Source: Pleomorphomonas diazotrophica
GTDB taxonomy: Bacteria; Pseudomonadota; Alphaproteobacteria; Rhizobiales; Pleomorphomonadaceae
Reading direction: 5' to 3'
Length of the DNA stretch: 44,436 bases
Assembly: GCF_002844595.1 (NCBI RefSeq)
Contig: NZ_PJNW01000024.1
Location: forward strand, 1-44,436
How positions within the stretch are numbered: the first letter of the stretch is position 1; every line of letters begins with the position of its first letter. Shown piece after piece: positions 26,530 to 36,717 of this stretch. A program made the translations under genes and the position numbers. A model generated the notes under the pieces. It worked only from the letters and a program-made list of their open reading frames with translations. It did not search any database and was not told the DNA's origin.

Positions 26530-29500
26530 TTACTCGGCGAGAACACGCGTCGACGGGAAGGTGATCTGGATCATCGTGCCCTGGCCGGGCGTCGAGTCGA
26601 TCTGGAAGGCGGCGCGGTTGGCTTCGACCAGCGCCTTGGTGAGCGGCAGGCCGAGACCGGTGCCGCCGCCGGTCCGTGACGTTGAGAGCTGACGGAACGG
26701 TTCCATCGCCTTGACGATGTCGCCCTCGCTCATCCCCTGTCCGGTATCGCGGACCCGGAGCACCACCTCGCCGGATTCCTCGTAGAGCGTCGAGACGATC
26801 ACCTGACCACCGGCCGAGTTGAACTTCACGGCATTGGACAGGAGATTCAGGATGATCTGCCGAAGGCTGCGATTGTCGGCCACCACGGGAGGTAGGCTCG
26901 ACGACAGCGAGGTGCGGATGATGATCCGCTCGCGGTTGGCCTGCGGCTGCATCAACGCCGCGCATTCCCGCACCACGTCGTTGAGCCCCACGGCCTCGAA
27001 GGTCAGTTCGAGCTTGCCCGCCTCGATCTTCGAGAGGTCGAGAAGGTCGTTGACCAAGCTCATGATATGGGTGCCCGACACGTGGATGTCGCGCAGGTAT
27101 TCCTTATAGCGCTCGTTGCCGACCGGGCCGAAGCGCTCCTCCATCATCACCTCGGAGAAGCCGATGATGGCGTTGAGCGGCGTCCGGATTTCGTGGCTCA
27201 TCTTGGCCAGGAAATCCGATTTCTGCGACGAGGCGTTCTCCGCTGCCTTCTTGGCGGAGGTTAGCTCCTCCTCGGCCCGCTTCCATTGGGTGATGTCGCG
27301 GAGCACGGCGCAGAACTTGGTCGGCGATACCCGGCCGACCGTCATGAACAGCGGCACCAGACCGCCGCCGGCGACGCGGCCGATCACCTCGCGCCCGTCG
27401 TTGAGCACGCTGGACAGCGCGTTGCGGCCGAGGCCGTCGAGATAGTCGAGCGCCGAGCGGTGGCTTTCGGGGGCCAGGAGGTCGACGAAGGCCATGCCGA
27501 TCATGTGCGACCGCTCGTTGCCGAACAGCGCTTCGGCCGACTTGTTGGCGCCGATCACCAGCCCTTTCTGGTCGAGCACCAGCACGCCGTCGGTGGCGGT
27601 GTCGAGAATGGCCTCCATGTCTTCCGCCCGCTGCTCGGCGGTGGCAAGACGGTCGCGGCTGGTGGCGGCGGCGGTTTCCTGGACCACCAGAAGCGAGGCG
27701 ATGCCGCCGTCCATCGGCATGGAATGCAGCCGGGCCGACACGGGGATCTCGACGCCGTCGCGCCGGCGAATGGCGGGAATGGCCGCGTCGCGGCTGAGGG
27801 CCGCGCCCTCGAACACCTGGGCGAAACCGCCGTCGCCATCGATCGTCGCGACGTCCGGATAGCCGCAGAGGTCGAGGAAGGCGCGGTTGGCGTGGATGAT
27901 GTCGCCGCCCCTCAGAATGGCGAGCGCCACCGGCAGCTTGTCGAGCAGCGCGACGTCGACGGACGGCCCGATTTCAGGCTGGGTCTCGGCCTGGCGACTG
28001 ACGACGGGAATCGGGTGAACAGGCTGGCGATCCGCCGGATCGGCCATGATGCGCGGCCCGAAGGCGTCGGCCAGCGCCTCGGCGATCTTGTCGAAGGCGT
28101 CGCGCTCCGGTTTGGAAAGGGCTTTCGCCTTGTCGCCGGTCAGGCTGGCAAAGGTGGCGCGATGGGTAGCCGCCGGTGCGGAGGTCACCTCGCTGACCGA
28201 TGGCGCGGCCGGCTCGGGGTCGATCGGCTCCGCTGCCACCTCGTCTGCAGATACAGAAAGCGGCGGAAGCTCGGGATCGGCCAGGTCTGACGCAACGTCT
28301 TCAGGGGGCGTCACGAGCGGCAGCGGCTCGACCAGTTCGTCCGCTTCGGTCGGCTCCTCATCGGCGAGCAGCGTCTCGTCCGGAAGATCCTGTTCGGTGG
28401 CGGCGGTGATATCGGAAAGATCGGCCTCGCTGGCAACGTCAACAGGTTCATCAGCGATCTCGACGTCAGCTTCCGTCGAAGATCCATCTGCCGTTTCGGC
28501 TTCAGGTTCCTCCGGCGCCACCTCATCGGCCGTGCCGACCTCAGCTTCCATCAGGGCCGTCTCATCGGCGGTCTCGAAGGAGGGGAATGTCTCGGGTTCC
28601 GAGGCGTCCGGCGTCTCGGCCGCCAACGCGTCGGAGATGGTCTCTTCCGTCGTCTGCGGCAGCTCGGGAGTATCGGACTCGGGTGCCGCTTCCGCTGCGG
28701 CATCCTCGACGGCTCGTGCCTCCTGCACTGCTTCCGCTGAGGAGACGTCGTCGACGACCAGGGGAGCGTCGGCGCCGTCGTCCACCGGTTGCTCGGCACT
28801 CTCCGCGCCGACAATCGCAACCGAAGAGACCTCCTCCTCAGTGACACCGTCCGTTGCATCGCTCTCCGTCGGCGGCAGTGGGGCTGCCTCGTCGGGTTCG
28901 GATGCGGCGATCGGCTCGGCAGGGATCGGCGCCTCGAAAGCGGCACCGGTCTTCAGCACGCCGAAGCCGCGATACCCGCGGAACGCACGTTCGCGGCCGA
29001 ACACCGGCATGCCCGCCAGATCGGCCGGCACGCGCAGGTTCTCTCCTTCCACTGGCCAGTCGACGGTAAGCCCGGTGAAGGTGTCGCGGTGACCGAGCGC
29101 CTCGGCGATGCGTCCCGCCGGATCGAACTCGAGGCGGCCGGCGACCTCGGACCAGGTGCGTCCGAGGATGTCAGCCATGCCGGGGCCGACCGTCGCGGCA
29201 AGGTCGGCCGAAACGAAGGTGAAAGCCAGCAGCGGGTCGAGCTCGAAGACGAAGCGAACGGGCCGGCCGTGGGTCGGGAAGACGAAGGCCGGCGCGGCAG
29301 CCTCGGGCGTCGCGTCAACCGTCTCGGGCGGAACGTCCTCGGCATTCGTCTCGGAAACAGCCGGTTCCGGCGCAGCTTCCGCGAGGGAGGGTTCGGCGGT
29401 CTCGGGCGCCGTATCCTCCGGCGCTTCGACGCGGCCATCCGGCTCCGAGGACGCTTCCTGCAACACTGTTTCGACATCCGCAGACGGTTCGGCTTGGTCC

Positions 29501-30303
29501 TTCTCGACGTCGGCGTCGCACGGCTCGGCCTCAACTTCCTCGGCGGTCGCCTCGCCTTCGGCGACGGCGTCCGGCTCGGCCGCCAGATCCTCTTCGGCGC
29601 TTTCGGAGGAGGCCTCTTCGGAGACCGTCTCGAAAGTCTCGGCGACCTCCGGCAAAGGAGCATCGATGACGGCTTCGGTATTGTCCGCCACGAGGTCGAG
29701 AACCGCCTCTTCGGCCGTGATCTCATCGGCGGTATCGATCGGCTCGGGCATGTCCGGCGCGGCCGCGTCGACAACGGTCTCGATCGGCTCGGCTGCATCC
29801 GTCGCAACCACGTCGCTGACGATCCCGATCGGTTCCGCTGCGGTGTTCTCGGTCTTTGCCACGGTTTCCGCAGCCGGGGGCAGGGCGGTCGCCGTGAGGG
29901 CAGCGAAGGCCGAGACCGGATCGCCGGTAAATGACCCCGTGCCGTCGACGATGGTGAGCAGGATCGCCTTGACGCCGTCCGCCGTCACACGACTGGCCTT
30001 GCAGACCGTCGGGCGGGGCAGCAGACCGCGTTGCAGGGGCAACCGCTCGATCCGGTCCTGGCTGCTGACCAGCATGTCGTCGAGAGTGGCAATGCGGCGC
30101 GCGAAAGGTGAGTTGGAAGCGAAGCGCAGCGCCGTCAGCTTGTCGATTGTCGTGACGCCGAAGAAGGCAGCTCCGGCGGCGTTGGCCCAGAGCAGTCGGC
30201 TACCGGTCCGGTCGACGACAAGGGACGGTCGGGTATCGGCCACGAGCGGACCGACGTTCTCCGTCTGGCTCAGGACTCTGAACAGATCTGCTCCGCCGGA
30301 CAT
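26530..30303 (-). CDS. pdhS: PAS-domain sensor histidine kinase of the PdhS/DivJ/PleC group with a long acidic insert
   Basis: Large kinase (1257 aa) probably feeding the DivK-CtrA cell-cycle relay of alphaproteobacteria. An N-terminal PAS-like region (LLWANAAGAAFFGV) precedes roughly 600 residues of low-complexity sequence rich in Ala, Glu, Pro and Asp, interrupted by a globular stretch (FVFPTHGRPVRFVFELDPLLAF..). Two further PAS domains follow, then the dimerisation region with phosphorylated H1037 in FLAKMSHEIRTPLNAIIGFSE and the PdhS/DivJ-type continuation EERFGP. The ATPase domain has N1153 (NLLSNAVKF), DTGQG (1186-1190) and GGGTGLGLPL. No membrane helix is obvious, so it should be cytoplasmic or recruited. 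The ATG at 30303 (GGAG upstream) is preferred to a start at 30405. The PdhS name is a family-level inference. Confidence 0.82.
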   Translation of the reverse strand: MSGGADLFRVLSQTENVGPLVADTRPSLVVDRTGSRLLWANAAGAAFFGVTTIDKLTALRFASNSPFARRIATLDDMLVSSQDRIERLPLQRGLLPRPTVCKASRVTADGVKAILLTIVDGTGSFTGDPVSAFAALTATALPPAAETVAKTENTAAEPIGIVSDVVATDAAEPIETVVDAAAPDMPEPIDTADEITAEEAVLDLVADNTEAVIDAPLPEVAETFETVSEEASSESAEEDLAAEPDAVAEGEATAEEVEAEPCDADVEKDQAEPSADVETVLQEASSEPDGRVEAPEDTAPETAEPSLAEAAPEPAVSETNAEDVPPETVDATPEAAAPAFVFPTHGRPVRFVFELDPLLAFTFVSADLAATVGPGMADILGRTWSEVAGRLEFDPAGRIAEALGHRDTFTGLTVDWPVEGENLRVPADLAGMPVFGRERAFRGYRGFGVLKTGAAFEAPIPAEPIAASEPDEAAPLPPTESDATDGVTEEEVSSVAIVGAESAEQPVDDGADAPLVVDDVSSAEAVQEARAVEDAAAEAAPESDTPELPQTTEETISDALAAETPDASEPETFPSFETADETALMEAEVGTADEVAPEEPEAETADGSSTEADVEIADEPVDVASEADLSDITAATEQDLPDETLLADEEPTEADELVEPLPLVTPPEDVASDLADPELPPLSVSADEVAAEPIDPEPAAPSVSEVTSAPAATHRATFASLTGDKAKALSKPERDAFDKIAEALADAFGPRIMADPADRQPVHPIPVVSRQAETQPEIGPSVDVALLDKLPVALAILRGGDIIHANRAFLDLCGYPDVATIDGDGGFAQVFEGAALSRDAAIPAIRRRDGVEIPVSARLHSMPMDGGIASLLVVQETAAATSRDRLATAEQRAEDMEAILDTATDGVLVLDQKGLVIGANKSAEALFGNERSHMIGMAFVDLLAPESHRSALDYLDGLGRNALSSVLNDGREVIGRVAGGGLVPLFMTVGRVSPTKFCAVLRDITQWKRAEEELTSAKKAAENASSQKSDFLAKMSHEIRTPLNAIIGFSEVMMEERFGPVGNERYKEYLRDIHVSGTHIMSLVNDLLDLSKIEAGKLELTFEAVGLNDVVRECAALMQPQANRERIIIRTSLSSSLPPVVADNRSLRQIILNLLSNAVKFNSAGGQVIVSTLYEESGEVVLRVRDTGQGMSEGDIVKAMEPFRQLSTSRTGGGTGLGLPLTKALVEANRAAFQIDSTPGQGTMIQITFPSTRVLAE

Positions 30304-30427
30304 GCCGCGTCTCCACCTTTTTCGACACCGGGGCGTCTCGACCGGTGGCGCCGGCAGTAAAAATCCGCCGTCTCCGACCGATTGGGCAGGCCGGACAGCA
30401 AACATCCGGCCCGTATAGCGTCTTCAG

Positions 30428-30779: not shown

Positions 30780-30858
30780 AAGGATTTTGGTCAAGGATGC
30801 CGTTCGTGCGGCTGCCGTGAAGAGCAGCGTCAGCGACGTAACAGGACGGGCGACAGCC

Positions 30859-33072
30859 ATGACGGATGAGCCGATCGCAGATGAGAACCCGGTACGTTTC
30901 ACGGCCCGGCAGCCTGGCCCGGCATCGCTGGCCTCGGCGACACCCGGCAACGTTCCTTTCCAAAGCCGCTCCGCCCCAATTATCGACATGATGGCTCGCT
31001 TTGCCGCCTGGCCCCTGATGACGGCCCTCCGGCGCGCCCTGCTTCTGTCACTGCCGCTCGTGCTGGTTGGCGCCTTCGCGTTGTTCGTCAGCGCCCTTAC
31101 CACTCTTCCCTTTGCCGGAGGGTTTCCCGTCGGGGCCGTCGAGGCTGTGCGTGCCGTTTGCGCCACGCTCGTCGACGGCACCTTCGGCCTGGTCGCCCTG
31201 GTGTTGGTGGCTGGCTTTTCTCATTCGTTGGCCACGCTGACCGGTACCCGCGCCGACAGTAACCCGGTCAACCCGTCGAGCGTCTCCGTGGTAGCGCTAG
31301 CGTGCTTCTTTATCACTGTGGCGCCCGACACGACGGAGCGCTGGAAGGAGGCGCTGTCGTCGTCGCGCGGACTGCCGGCGGCGCTGGTCGTCGCCATCAG
31401 CGCCAGCTACCTGTTCTTGTTCCTGGCGCGGCGTCCGCAGTTCCGGCTTCGGCTGCGCGGCCTCGGCGCGGACCCGCTGGTCGGCGACCTGTTTTCCATT
31501 CTGCCGGCCGGCATGATCACGCTCACGGTCTTCGCCATGATCCGGCAGGCGCAGGTGGCCTTCGGCGGGCCAGACCTGACGACGGCGCTGTCGGCTGCCA
31601 TATCCGCGCCTTTCACCGGCGCCGAACCTTCGGCATTGCTGGTTGCCGCCCATGCGCTGATCAGCCAGTTCCTGTGGTTCCTCGGCGGGCACGGCGCCAA
31701 CATGATGCTGCCCGTCGTGGAGCAGATGGTCGCGGCGGCCGGCGCCGACGGCCCGGCCAGCGTCGTCACCTGGAGTTTTTTCTCCGTCTATGGGGGACTC
31801 GGCGGCTCAGGCGCGACCCTCTGCCTGATCGTCGCGCTCCTCTATGCCGACCGCGATCCATCGACCCGCCGGCTCGCCTGGCTGTCGCTGCTGCCCGCCT
31901 TGGTCAACGTCAACGAACCTCTGGTATTCGGCCTGCCGCTGATCCTAAACCCAGTCTATGCCATTCCGTTCGTCCTGACCCCCGTCCTGCTGTCGCTCAT
32001 CGCCTATGCGGCGACGGCCGTCGGCCTCGTGCCGGTCGCCGATCAGGCTGTTTCCTGGACGATGCCAGCGCTCGTCAGCGGCTATCTCGCCACCGGCTCA
32101 CCGGCTGGAGCCGTTTTGCAGCTCGTGGAACTCGCCGTAGGGACGTTGCTCTATCTCCCCTTTGTCCGGATTGCCGCCCGCCTGCGGCTCGCCAGCAATG
32201 CCGAAGCGATGAGTCGGCTGCTTGCCGCTTCGGTCTCCGACGAGGTGGTGCATGGGCACCGGCTGATTGATCTTCCGGGCACCGCGGGACGCCTCGCCAA
32301 TGCGCTGAGCCGCGACCTCGTCGATGCGCTCGCCTCGTCGGATCGCCTCTATCTTCAGTACCAGCCGCAGGTCAGCATCGAGGAACGCAGGGTGTTCGGC
32401 GTCGAGGCGCTTCTCCGCTGGGAACATGAGGTCTACGGTCTCATCCCGCCGTCGGTGACGGTCGCGCTGGCAGAGGACCTGCAAATCGTCGACCGTTTGG
32501 GCGAGCATGTGCTCCGTCTTGCCTGCCGGCAGCGCGCCGCCTGGGGGAAGTCGGTGGCCGACGATCTCATCGTCTCCGTCAACATCTCGCCGCGCCAGTT
32601 GCAGGATGCCGACTTCGACCTGAAGGTTCTGCGCATTCTCGCCGAGACGGGGTTGGAGCCTTCTCTGGTCGAACTTGAAATCACCGAGTCGACATCGCTT
32701 GCACCTGCCACCCAGGCAATCGGAGCTTTGCTGCGCCTGCGCAACGCCGGCGTCCGCATTGCGCTCGATGACTTTGGCATGGGGCACACTTCCTTGCATT
32801 ATCTGCGCGAACTGCCCCTCGACACGGTGAAGATCGATCGATCCCTTACCTTCACCAGCCAGGGCGACCTCAACGAGCATGTGATCCGGTCGATTGTCGC
32901 GCTCAGCCGCACCCTTGGCCTCCGCGCCGTGGTGGAGGGCATCGAGCAGCCCGAACAGCTTCCTCGGTTCATCGATCTCGGCTGCGCTCGCTTCCAGGGC
33001 TATCTGTTCTCAAGACCGCTCGAAAGCGGGCCTTGCCTCGACTACATCAGGGCCAACGCCGGCGCTGCCTGA
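30859..33072 (+). CDS. PTS EIIC-like membrane domain fused to an EAL c-di-GMP phosphodiesterase
   Basis: Two-part signalling or transport protein of about 737 aa. Residues ~40-450 form a polytopic domain of the lactose/cellobiose PTS EIIC family with about ten helices; diagnostic motifs are WFLGGHGANMM (~273-283) and NVNEPLVFGLPLILNP (~350-365) with the conserved glutamate E353. Residues ~480-735 form an EAL domain with the full catalytic set: E516 (VEALLRW), N in VNISPRQL, E607 (LEITES), D637-D638 (DDFGMGHTSL), K658 (VKIDRS), E693 (VVEGIEQ) and Q in RFQGYLF. It should hydrolyse c-di-GMP in the cytoplasm. No EIIA or EIIB domain is attached and no other PTS gene is nearby, so sugar sensing may be more likely than phosphotransfer. 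The ATG at 30859 is chosen; an in-frame TTG at 30787 would add 24 residues, and neither has a strong ribosome site. Confidence 0.9.
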   Translation: MTDEPIADENPVRFTARQPGPASLASATPGNVPFQSRSAPIIDMMARFAAWPLMTALRRALLLSLPLVLVGAFALFVSALTTLPFAGGFPVGAVEAVRAVCATLVDGTFGLVALVLVAGFSHSLATLTGTRADSNPVNPSSVSVVALACFFITVAPDTTERWKEALSSSRGLPAALVVAISASYLFLFLARRPQFRLRLRGLGADPLVGDLFSILPAGMITLTVFAMIRQAQVAFGGPDLTTALSAAISAPFTGAEPSALLVAAHALISQFLWFLGGHGANMMLPVVEQMVAAAGADGPASVVTWSFFSVYGGLGGSGATLCLIVALLYADRDPSTRRLAWLSLLPALVNVNEPLVFGLPLILNPVYAIPFVLTPVLLSLIAYAATAVGLVPVADQAVSWTMPALVSGYLATGSPAGAVLQLVELAVGTLLYLPFVRIAARLRLASNAEAMSRLLAASVSDEVVHGHRLIDLPGTAGRLANALSRDLVDALASSDRLYLQYQPQVSIEERRVFGVEALLRWEHEVYGLIPPSVTVALAEDLQIVDRLGEHVLRLACRQRAAWGKSVADDLIVSVNISPRQLQDADFDLKVLRILAETGLEPSLVELEITESTSLAPATQAIGALLRLRNAGVRIALDDFGMGHTSLHYLRELPLDTVKIDRSLTFTSQGDLNEHVIRSIVALSRTLGLRAVVEGIEQPEQLPRFIDLGCARFQGYLFSRPLESGPCLDYIRANAGAA

Positions 33073-35028: not shown

Positions 35029-36717
35029 TCAGAACAGCACGTCGTCGAACAGGTCTTCGGTCTCCTTGGCCGGAGCGGCGGAAGCCGGTGCACCGCTCCA
35101 TCCAAGAATTGCCCGATGGATGTCCCGTTCGGCGGCCATGGTGTAGACCGCGAAAAGACGCTCGGAAAAGCCAGCGTAGTCCTTCGCGTTCTCTGCCGGA
35201 GCAGTTGTGTCGCTGCTGCCGAACATGCGGTGGCAGGTATGGAGGTGTTCGCCGAGGTCCTTGCTGAAGTCGATGTGACGGGCAATGTGCCCGATGCGCT
35301 CGGCAACGGCGTTTCCGCTCTCCTCCGCTTCCTTGAGGTGAAGGCTGGTGCGGATGTTGGCCTCGCGCAGGGTCGTCACAGCCCCGTCGATCTCCCCGAC
35401 GATATCGACGCGGGCTTCCCCGGCGTTGTTGTCGATGCCTTCGGCGGTTTCGCGCATGGTCGACAGACGTTGCAGGATGTCCTCAGCCGCAACGCCGAGC
35501 CTTGCGGCATAGGTGTTCATCTCTGCCGCCACCACGCCGACGGCGCGCCCTTTGGCGCCCAGTCGGTTGCTGCGGAGATAGGCGTTGATGGCGAGGCAGC
35601 GGATGTCGTCGCGCACACTGCGGATGTTGCCGATGTTGCCCATGTTGCTGAGCAACTCCGTGGCAACCCGCTTGGTGCTGGCATAGGCGGCGGCCGCGAG
35701 GGCGCCCGACTTCTCGATGTCGCCGACCACGCCGCGTGCGAAGCCGACGCCGTCCTCGATGGCCTGCATCTCGCCGCCGCCGTTGCAGCCGGCCTTGCCG
35801 GTCAGCGACAGCACCCGCGAGGCCTCGCCCGCCAGGCCCTCGATGGTGGCGACGACCACCCGCGTCTGTTCGCTGAAGTCCTTGATCAATGCCGATGTCT
35901 GGGCGGCCAGCAGGCGGATGCCGGCCTCCGAGAGCGCTTCGGCCTGCGTTTCCGAGCCGCATCGGGCGACTTCGTCGAGAAGAATGGCGATGCCGGCCTG
36001 CACGTGTTCGATGCGCTGCCGGGCCACGTCACCGGCCTGCAAGGCCGACAGGACCTTGCCGACCTTCTCCTGAACCGACTTCGCCACATCGGCCGTGCCG
36101 CTGGCAAGCCGCCTCAGGCCGGCGCGGCGGCCCCGGACCGCATCGAGAGCGTCGGTCAGGGTGGAGGAAACGGTCGAGACCTGGGCCGCGATGCCCGCGC
36201 CTTTGTCGTCGGCGCAGGCGACTGCGACCTGGGCACTCAACTGGCCGACCTTGTCGGCAAAGATCTCGATCTGTTCGATCGCCGAGCCGACATACTTGTC
36301 GACGTCGTCGGCGAACTGGGCGAACTCGGTCACGCCGGCCCCGGCGATCCGGGTCTCCATGGCACAGGTGTTGAGATAGCGCAGCGAGCGCTGCATGTCG
36401 CGAATGCGCGGCGTGATCGCCTCGCTGTCGACAAGGACAGACGCCAGACGCTGTCCGGTGGTGGCTTCGGCTTCGACGAGGTTGGCGAGGCCTTTCAGTG
36501 TGGCGGTCAGCCGGGCCGCCGCTTCGTCACAAGCGTGATCATCGAGGGCGCCGGTTACGCCTTCGATCGCAGTGAGAAGACGGGCGACGATGTCATAGGC
36601 GGCCATCAGGGCCTTGCCGCCTTCGACGAAACGTTCCTCGATCTGCGAACGGGCGGCCTCGAGCTCATCGGAGACCGCGCGGAGATCGGGTCGGCGGGAC
36701 GTGCCTTCTGAAATCAC
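35029..36717 (-). CDS. Soluble chemotaxis-like coiled-coil protein with a CheZ-like C-terminal tail
   Basis: 562-aa protein without membrane helices or a signal peptide, almost entirely alpha-helical and rich in Ala, Glu, Val and Arg, with heptad character resembling the cytoplasmic part of methyl-accepting chemotaxis proteins. Segments such as ALQAGDVARQRIEHVQAGI and DDIRCLAINAYLRSNRLGAKGRAVGVVAAEMNTYA recall MCP-like signalling helices. The canonical MCP hairpin tip motif is not evident. The last residues, ETEDLFDDVLF, resemble the acidic-hydrophobic CheY-binding tail of CheZ (for comparison VDDLLDSLGF). It starts at GTG (36717) behind AGGAG. A role as a response-regulator-binding or phosphatase-like chemotaxis factor is my inference; I do not recognise a characterised orthologue. 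Confidence 0.65.
   Translation of the reverse strand: MISEGTSRRPDLRAVSDELEAARSQIEERFVEGGKALMAAYDIVARLLTAIEGVTGALDDHACDEAAARLTATLKGLANLVEAEATTGQRLASVLVDSEAITPRIRDMQRSLRYLNTCAMETRIAGAGVTEFAQFADDVDKYVGSAIEQIEIFADKVGQLSAQVAVACADDKGAGIAAQVSTVSSTLTDALDAVRGRRAGLRRLASGTADVAKSVQEKVGKVLSALQAGDVARQRIEHVQAGIAILLDEVARCGSETQAEALSEAGIRLLAAQTSALIKDFSEQTRVVVATIEGLAGEASRVLSLTGKAGCNGGGEMQAIEDGVGFARGVVGDIEKSGALAAAAYASTKRVATELLSNMGNIGNIRSVRDDIRCLAINAYLRSNRLGAKGRAVGVVAAEMNTYAARLGVAAEDILQRLSTMRETAEGIDNNAGEARVDIVGEIDGAVTTLREANIRTSLHLKEAEESGNAVAERIGHIARHIDFSKDLGEHLHTCHRMFGSSDTTAPAENAKDYAGFSERLFAVYTMAAERDIHRAILGWSGAPASAAPAKETEDLFDDVLF

Follow-up and report, generated by a model that had tools for sequence, protein, structure and literature searches.

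A conserved fusion of a lactose/cellobiose-type EIIC domain to an EAL phosphodiesterase in Pleomorphomonas is a candidate phosphorylation-independent sugar receptor

We analyzed a window of 44,436 nucleotides, the whole of contig NZ_PJNW01000024.1 of Pleomorphomonas diazotrophica (GCF_002844595.1), and found a gene in which a PTS EIIC-like membrane domain is fused to an EAL phosphodiesterase domain (Table 1). An earlier note, made from the letters alone, had read both domains from one frame, and this was borne out: counted from the earliest possible start, a single frame is free of stops from 30787 to 33072, and PTS_EIIC (PF02378; 64.2 bits, E 1.4e-17, cut-off 30.7) and EAL (PF00563; 210.1 bits, E 4.1e-62, cut-off 31.3), the two families named there for a domain search, both passed their cut-offs, with similarity to EIIC profiles evident and no other Pfam family matching the protein at E up to 0.01. 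The start that the note gave, 30859 (MTDEPIA), recurs in congeneric genomes as MTDEPIA or MTNEPIA, and the protein is therefore taken to be 737 amino acids long. Its hydropathy is consistent with the roughly ten hydrophobic segments described, and the EIIC hallmarks lie at residues 276–279 (GGHG) and 350–354 (NVNEP).

Table 1. Features of the EIIC-EAL fusion gene and two neighboring genes, in positions of the window
Feature	Position	Strand	Basis
EIIC-EAL fusion gene, 737 aa	30859..33072	+	ORF and Pfam; start common to congeners
Lac/cellobiose-type EIIC domain, residues 44-448	30988..32202	+	TIGR00410/TIGR00359 match, ChbC 3qnq, predicted fold
PF02378 match within EIIC	31033-31983	+	Pfam
Loop, residues 191-206, between helices 171-190 and 206-213	31429..31476	+	Alignment; helices of the model
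Putative substrate-site motif W273-F-L-G-G-H278-G (ChbC Trp245, His250)	31675..31695	+	Alignment
Putative substrate-site motif N350-V-N-E353-P (ChbC Asn331, Glu334)	31906..31920	+	Alignment
Linker, residues 441-494	32179..32340	+	Alignment of linkers; helices of the model
EAL phosphodiesterase domain, all catalytic residues	32311..33018	+	Pfam, alignment, structure matches
PdhS-like cell-division histidine kinase, long acidic stretch	26530-30405	-	NF041593, 728 bits, cut-off 2000
562-aa protein, 75-88% identical in 11 congeners	35029-36717	-	No match in Pfam (E up to 1e-4) or NCBIfam (E up to 1e-3)

A frameshift or assembly error behind the fusion is unlikely, as the gene is found in 11 further congeneric genomes at 70–77% identity and mostly with the same neighbors, as far as the contigs reach. 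Its own genome included, the fusion is present in 12 of the 14 genomes of the genus and missing from 2, and it is absent from all six genomes of other genera in the family. Measured against the window gene in 11 congeneric pairs, for which synonymous divergence is high (0.6–1.2), dN/dS was 0.18–0.30 for the EIIC half and 0.07–0.15 for the EAL half, consistent with purifying selection on both.

Gene order around the fusion is maintained in the genus over the reach of the contigs. On one side, the divergent pdhS-like kinase gene adjoins the fusion and is kept beside it; on the other, a deoC-like aldolase gene is found in 10 of 11 congeneric stretches and an aldo/keto reductase gene in all 11. 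One congener (L196) retains the fusion and the aldo/keto reductase, with no deoC-like match between them. Further neighbors are a LacI-type regulator, SBP_bac_3 and ABC genes, and Asparaginase_2. As tblastn queries, the neighbors matched stretches of the genus; outside it, matches came from the kinase and ABC queries only and were partial or at 35–46%. No sugar pathway is named among the neighbors, which are common inside the genus only, and we rejected deducing the ligand from them. Scans of the sequence found one promoter-like site, inside the fusion gene (0.4 expected), and two terminator-like sites (2.5 expected).

Among NCBIfam models, the membrane part is nearest to those for lactose/cellobiose IIC proteins, TIGR00410/TIGR00359 (E 2.1e-56, 191.8 bits), while staying below the cut-offs of both TIGR00410 (lacE, 236 bits) and TIGR00359 (434); a kinase-fused relative described below (L042) passes the TIGR00410 cut-off with 294.2 bits. 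By sequence, the EIIC part has one solved relative, ChbC (3qnq; E 1.1e-39), the EIIC of the diacetylchitobiose PTS, with GGHG and NVNEP aligning with its His250 and Glu334. The Trp, His and NxNE Glu of the Lac-permease substrate site are all present in the window protein (W273, H278 and E353) and correspond to Trp245, His250 and Glu334 of ChbC, which we take to be the substrate-binding residues. The MPxxVPP loop is absent, however, and RGLGADP stands in its place. The loop of the window protein is rich in Arg, which by the positive-inside rule places it in the cytosol, on the side of EIIB, and the MPxxVPP loop of the transporters may serve EIIB. In structure prediction of the full-length protein, the fold matches were EAL structures, with 3qnq as the one exception, and we therefore folded the EIIC part alone; its predicted fold was that of EIIC transporters. 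The model is closer in rmsd to the outward-facing MalT than to the inward-facing ChbC, which we did not count as evidence.

For the EAL part, the nearest known structures are the EAL domains of BifA and MorA. The domain had been described as having all expected catalytic residues, and E516, R520, N575, E607, D637, D638, K658, E693 and Q713, at the nine positions that we take to be the usual catalytic ones, are indeed present. Between the two domains, the last membrane helix is predicted to extend over residues 415–459 and to be followed by a helix at 474–493 with DLPGTAGRLANALSRDL.

To compare the domain with its relatives, we assembled 60 fused EIICs and 45 standalone EIICs, the latter gathered as relatives of the former and thus no random sample, and numbered the positions after ChbC. 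Three sequences had been dropped as duplicates (L040, L042 and L211, of L034, L161 and L041, respectively) and five as cut or broken (L167, L173, L174, L181 and L225). The residues that the window protein shares with ChbC were widely kept in both groups: Glu334 in 60/60 fused and 45/45 standalone EIICs, Asn331 in 60/60 and 40/45, Trp245 in 59/60 and 39/45, His250 in 56/60 (absent in 4) and 40/45, and Trp382 in 54/60 and 40/45. The GGxG segment was kept in all 60 fused EIICs. The loop differed sharply, with Pro173 found in 0/60 fused vs. 41/45 standalone sequences, Val176 in 6/60 vs. 40/45, Pro177 in 2/60 vs. 42/45 and Pro178 in 19/60 vs. 39/45. Frequencies also differed at Asp27 (8/60 vs. 35/45), Pro223 (27/60 vs. 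44/45), Asn270 (32/60 vs. 45/45, that is, universal in standalone EIICs) and the Pro after the Glu (18/60 vs. 43/45; ChbC itself has Met).

Column entropies gave the same picture. In the fused EIICs, the mean for the loop was 2.87 bits, above the domain mean of 2.31, and the columns held no alternative shared motif; in the standalone EIICs, it was 1.37 bits, below the domain mean of 1.89. Entropy was low in both groups for segments 245–251 (0.77 in fused and 1.07 in standalone) and 331–341 (0.85 vs. 0.67, slightly higher in fused). Judged from the alignments, constraint is lifted from the MPxxVPP loop and not from the putative sugar site. The pattern bears on the reading of the EIIC as a mere membrane anchor or dimerization platform for a constitutive phosphodiesterase. 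The faster divergence of the EIIC than of the EAL half would agree with such a role, but substrate-site residues about as conserved as those of transporters, next to a loop that varies freely, would be needless for an anchor, and we find the reading improbable.

In the PTS, phosphorylation does not fall on EIIC itself, and a Lac-type permease can work only with EIIA (PF02255) and EIIB (TIGR00853). Profile searches of the P. diazotrophica genome found no Lac-type EIIA and no Lac-type EIIB. The earlier note had seen no EIIA, EIIB or HPr gene near the fusion, and a search of the whole contig for Lac EIIA, PF02302 EIIB and HPr agreed; there was no second EIIC on the contig either. Elsewhere, the genome has three HPr matches, so that a PTS as such is present. 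Two further EIIC genes occur as well, along with a pair of PF02302 EIIB matches that both fall in a separate PTS cluster, on contig 36. We read these EIIC genes and EIIBs as probably of the fructose or mannitol type.

We extended the partner searches to 34 fusion-bearing genomes, 32 with the fusion confirmed by frame reading and two (G684 and G708) by frame length only (677–698 aa). PF02255 was missing in 31 and present in 3, while TIGR00853 was unmatched in 30; one of the four TIGR00853 matches was weak (27.9 bits, in a 625-aa frame), and no match among the 34 genomes reached the model cut-off. The three genomes with both EIIA and EIIB, G684 and G708 among them, all fall in the same genus, and EIICs of the family with standalone length occur in each of them as well. 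Twelve of the 34 genomes come from a single genus; counted by genus, 1 of the 11 had a Lac EIIA or EIIB. The control genomes of E. coli, B. subtilis and L. lactis were positive in both searches. In four further genomes searched for EIIB, none was found in Desulfosporosinus, the kinase-fusion Synergistaceae genome or Ideonella, and six were found in Buttiauxella.

The missing partners and the lost loop, together with an exchange of output domains described below, argue for a receptor rather than a permease. We consider the odds somewhat in favor of the EIIC half being an orphan, phosphorylation-independent sugar receptor ("transceptor") that controls an active phosphodiesterase, and the guess that the protein may sense rather than phosphorylate sugar gains support, with the substrate-site residues kept. 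The part of EIIB could still be played by one from a different PTS family, which would speak against a receptor: in a working PTS permease of this kind, the foreign EIIB would phosphorylate the sugar on EIIC, and the state of phosphorylation or flux would control EAL. The HPr-bearing proteins, the two other EIIC genes and the two EIIB matches of the genome would fit such a permease, as would the retained site Glu. With Lac EIIA missing in 31 and EIIB unfound in 30 of the 34 genomes, the transporter loop lost and EIIC not itself the subunit to be phosphorylated, we nevertheless regard it as unlikely. The idea is near the "phosphoreceiver" of Randall et al. (2022; PMC8846402), a review that states it in general terms and includes PTS_EIIC among the domains seen rarely in c-di-GMP proteins. 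The partnership of EIIC with a c-di-GMP domain, which the earlier note suspected to be annotated already, is thus known; what is added here is evidence on its mechanism and family history. In the review, it is the phosphorylation state of EIIC that controls the output, whereas the missing EIIA and EIIB and the lost loop argue for a receptor free of phosphorylation. In glucose-family EIICs, the corresponding Glu is reported to be required not only for transport but also for phosphorylation (PMC12900739), and the retention of Glu334 therefore does not exclude phosphate transfer.

For the favored receptor, we propose that the orphan Lac/cellobiose-type EIIC would still bind sugar, with a beta-linked disaccharide or the corresponding monomer as the likeliest ligand, and would now stand outside phosphate transfer. 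Binding would move the EIIC elevator between states, and the shift may travel through the last membrane helix and on through the helix of the linker, reach the EAL domains in a putative dimer and alter their hydrolysis of c-di-GMP. Sugar supply would thereby set c-di-GMP and hence motility or attachment; the direction of signaling and the sign of the response are likewise presumed. Of the earlier interpretation, the domain identities, the EAL residues and the guess of sensing held up, and the reporting of sugar occupancy to c-di-GMP is a step that we, too, infer. The protein might alternatively be a transporter and a sensor at once, with EIIC moving unphosphorylated sugar by facilitated diffusion and EAL reporting the transport cycle, not occupancy. 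Glu334, Asn331 and the GGxG segment in 60/60 fused EIICs and the predicted EIIC-transporter fold are compatible with this, and CbrA, a transporter-kinase fusion, is described as both transporting and signaling. With no evident energy coupling, we think it rather doubtful.

Compared with ChbC, which is standalone and has an MPETVPP loop, the proposed receptor has the same fold and Trp245, His250, Asn331, Glu334 and Trp382 but is fused, lacks Lac partners in the genome and has lost the loop. With the SLC5-STAC histidine-kinase transceptors CbrA and CrbS, the first of which is described as a rare transceptor (PMC13022988; see also PMC7096432 and PMC5715377), it shares a transporter fold and a signaling output in one chain. 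CbrA and CrbS belong to another transporter superfamily and have a STAC linker and a kinase output, whereas the window protein has the EIIC fold, a linker of its own and EAL; SLC5 and STAC domains were not found in it at Pfam E up to 0.01. In PdeS (VC1710) of Vibrio cholerae, sugar also governs an EAL phosphodiesterase via a PTS part, but there the enzyme is controlled in trans by a separate EIIA-Glc acting by its phosphorylation state (PMC6877527), while the window protein has a membrane EIIC in the same chain. In the open-access literature, a scope that most subscription journals fall outside, we found no experimentally tested EIIC-EAL protein.

For most c-di-GMP enzymes, the input has, to our knowledge, yet to be identified, and a phosphorylation-free receptor would tie external sugar directly to c-di-GMP. 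It would correct the published "phosphoreceiver" label and offer a test bed for an elevator transporter fold turned receptor. The reading predicts that sugar alters phosphodiesterase activity in a host without Lac-type EIIA or EIIB.

The earlier note had proposed a survey of the fusion across genomes, and its presence in three phyla indicates that it is no curiosity of its own genome. In the order, 19 of 397 genomes had an EIIC match, and all 19 frames were fused to EAL. With the sample drawn over the window's phylum, 30 of 398 genomes had a match, and the 29 best matches besides the window's own consisted of 13 EAL fusions and 16 others. In the phylum of a Synergistaceae genome (32/185 genomes with a match), 30 best matches that were examined comprised 22 intact EAL fusions (18 by motif and 4 by alignment), 2 kinase fusions, 5 cut, broken or frame-shifted sequences and 1 standalone EIIC; in that of Desulfosporosinus (46/299), 30 such matches comprised 3 EAL fusions, 1 cut sequence and 26 standalone EIICs. 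Carriers include Rhizobiales bacterium IMCC20636, Desulfosporosinus hippei, Buttiauxella gaviniae and Ideonella paludis.

Trees were built from 107 rows, with the loop columns left out. In the tree of 98 rows (9 near-copies omitted), a branch with SH-aLRT 99 had the standalone EIICs on one side and the fused ones on the other, and a careful tree of 68 rows (39 near-copies and long branches omitted) gave the same split with support of 92/100 and in 89% of 200 bootstrap trees. As the trees are unrooted, a single origin is the simplest reading and unproven. Recurrent independent fusions were rejected, given that a single branch sets the standalone EIICs apart, in trees that are unrooted and with long branches flagged. 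Since only this branch separates the fused from the standalone EIICs, the loss of the loop and the orphan state may be one event.

In two genomes, a Synergistaceae genome and one relative, EIIC sits on a histidine kinase instead of EAL. In one case (L042:4950-7820, the same place as L161), Pfam places PAS, HisKA, HATPase_c and receiver domains after EIIC, and the other (L162) is classed as a kinase fusion by motif and alignment. Both nest among the EAL fusions in the tree. In an alignment of 28 linkers, that of the kinase fusion L162, HRPGETGSISSVLANDL, resembles those of EAL fusions, DRPGEIGAISRVLANDL in L163 and DLPGTAGRLANALSRDL in the window protein. A loose linker pattern was fitted by 38 of 62 fusions and missed by 24, the latter mostly forms outside the groups of the window, Synergistaceae and Desulfosporosinus. 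The likeness across EAL and kinase fusions suggests that, for part of the family, EIIC and linker together act as a portable module for input.

In some proteins, EAL domains serve as receptors for c-di-GMP, and control could thus run in reverse, with EAL binding c-di-GMP and gating sugar uptake by EIIC. Unlike in degenerate receptor EALs, however, the catalytic residues are intact in 59/60 fused proteins, L187 being the exception, and in relatives a kinase replaces EAL, which points to EIIC as the input; we consider reverse control very improbable. The records L187 and L188 (802 and 732 aa) share 519 identical residues and then split inside EAL, with a frame change in one of them.

Returning to EIIC as a sugar receptor, we tentatively propose, at a little less than even chances, that the fused EIICs form one ancient receptor family that split once from the PTS permeases and works without an EIIA/EIIB phosphorelay. 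Across at least three phyla, it would provide an interchangeable sugar input for phosphodiesterases and, through the output swap, for hybrid histidine kinases, and would represent a transceptor lineage beside SLC5-STAC, so far filed as phosphoreceivers.

Records of Clostridioides difficile and Tritonibacter mobilis matched over the later half of EIIC and EAL and are annotated as "EAL domain-containing protein." In a C. difficile record labeled as a plasmid (L241, NZ_CP149720.1 41456-51234), rlmH adjoins the EIIC-EAL-like gene, and the record may be a piece of chromosome.
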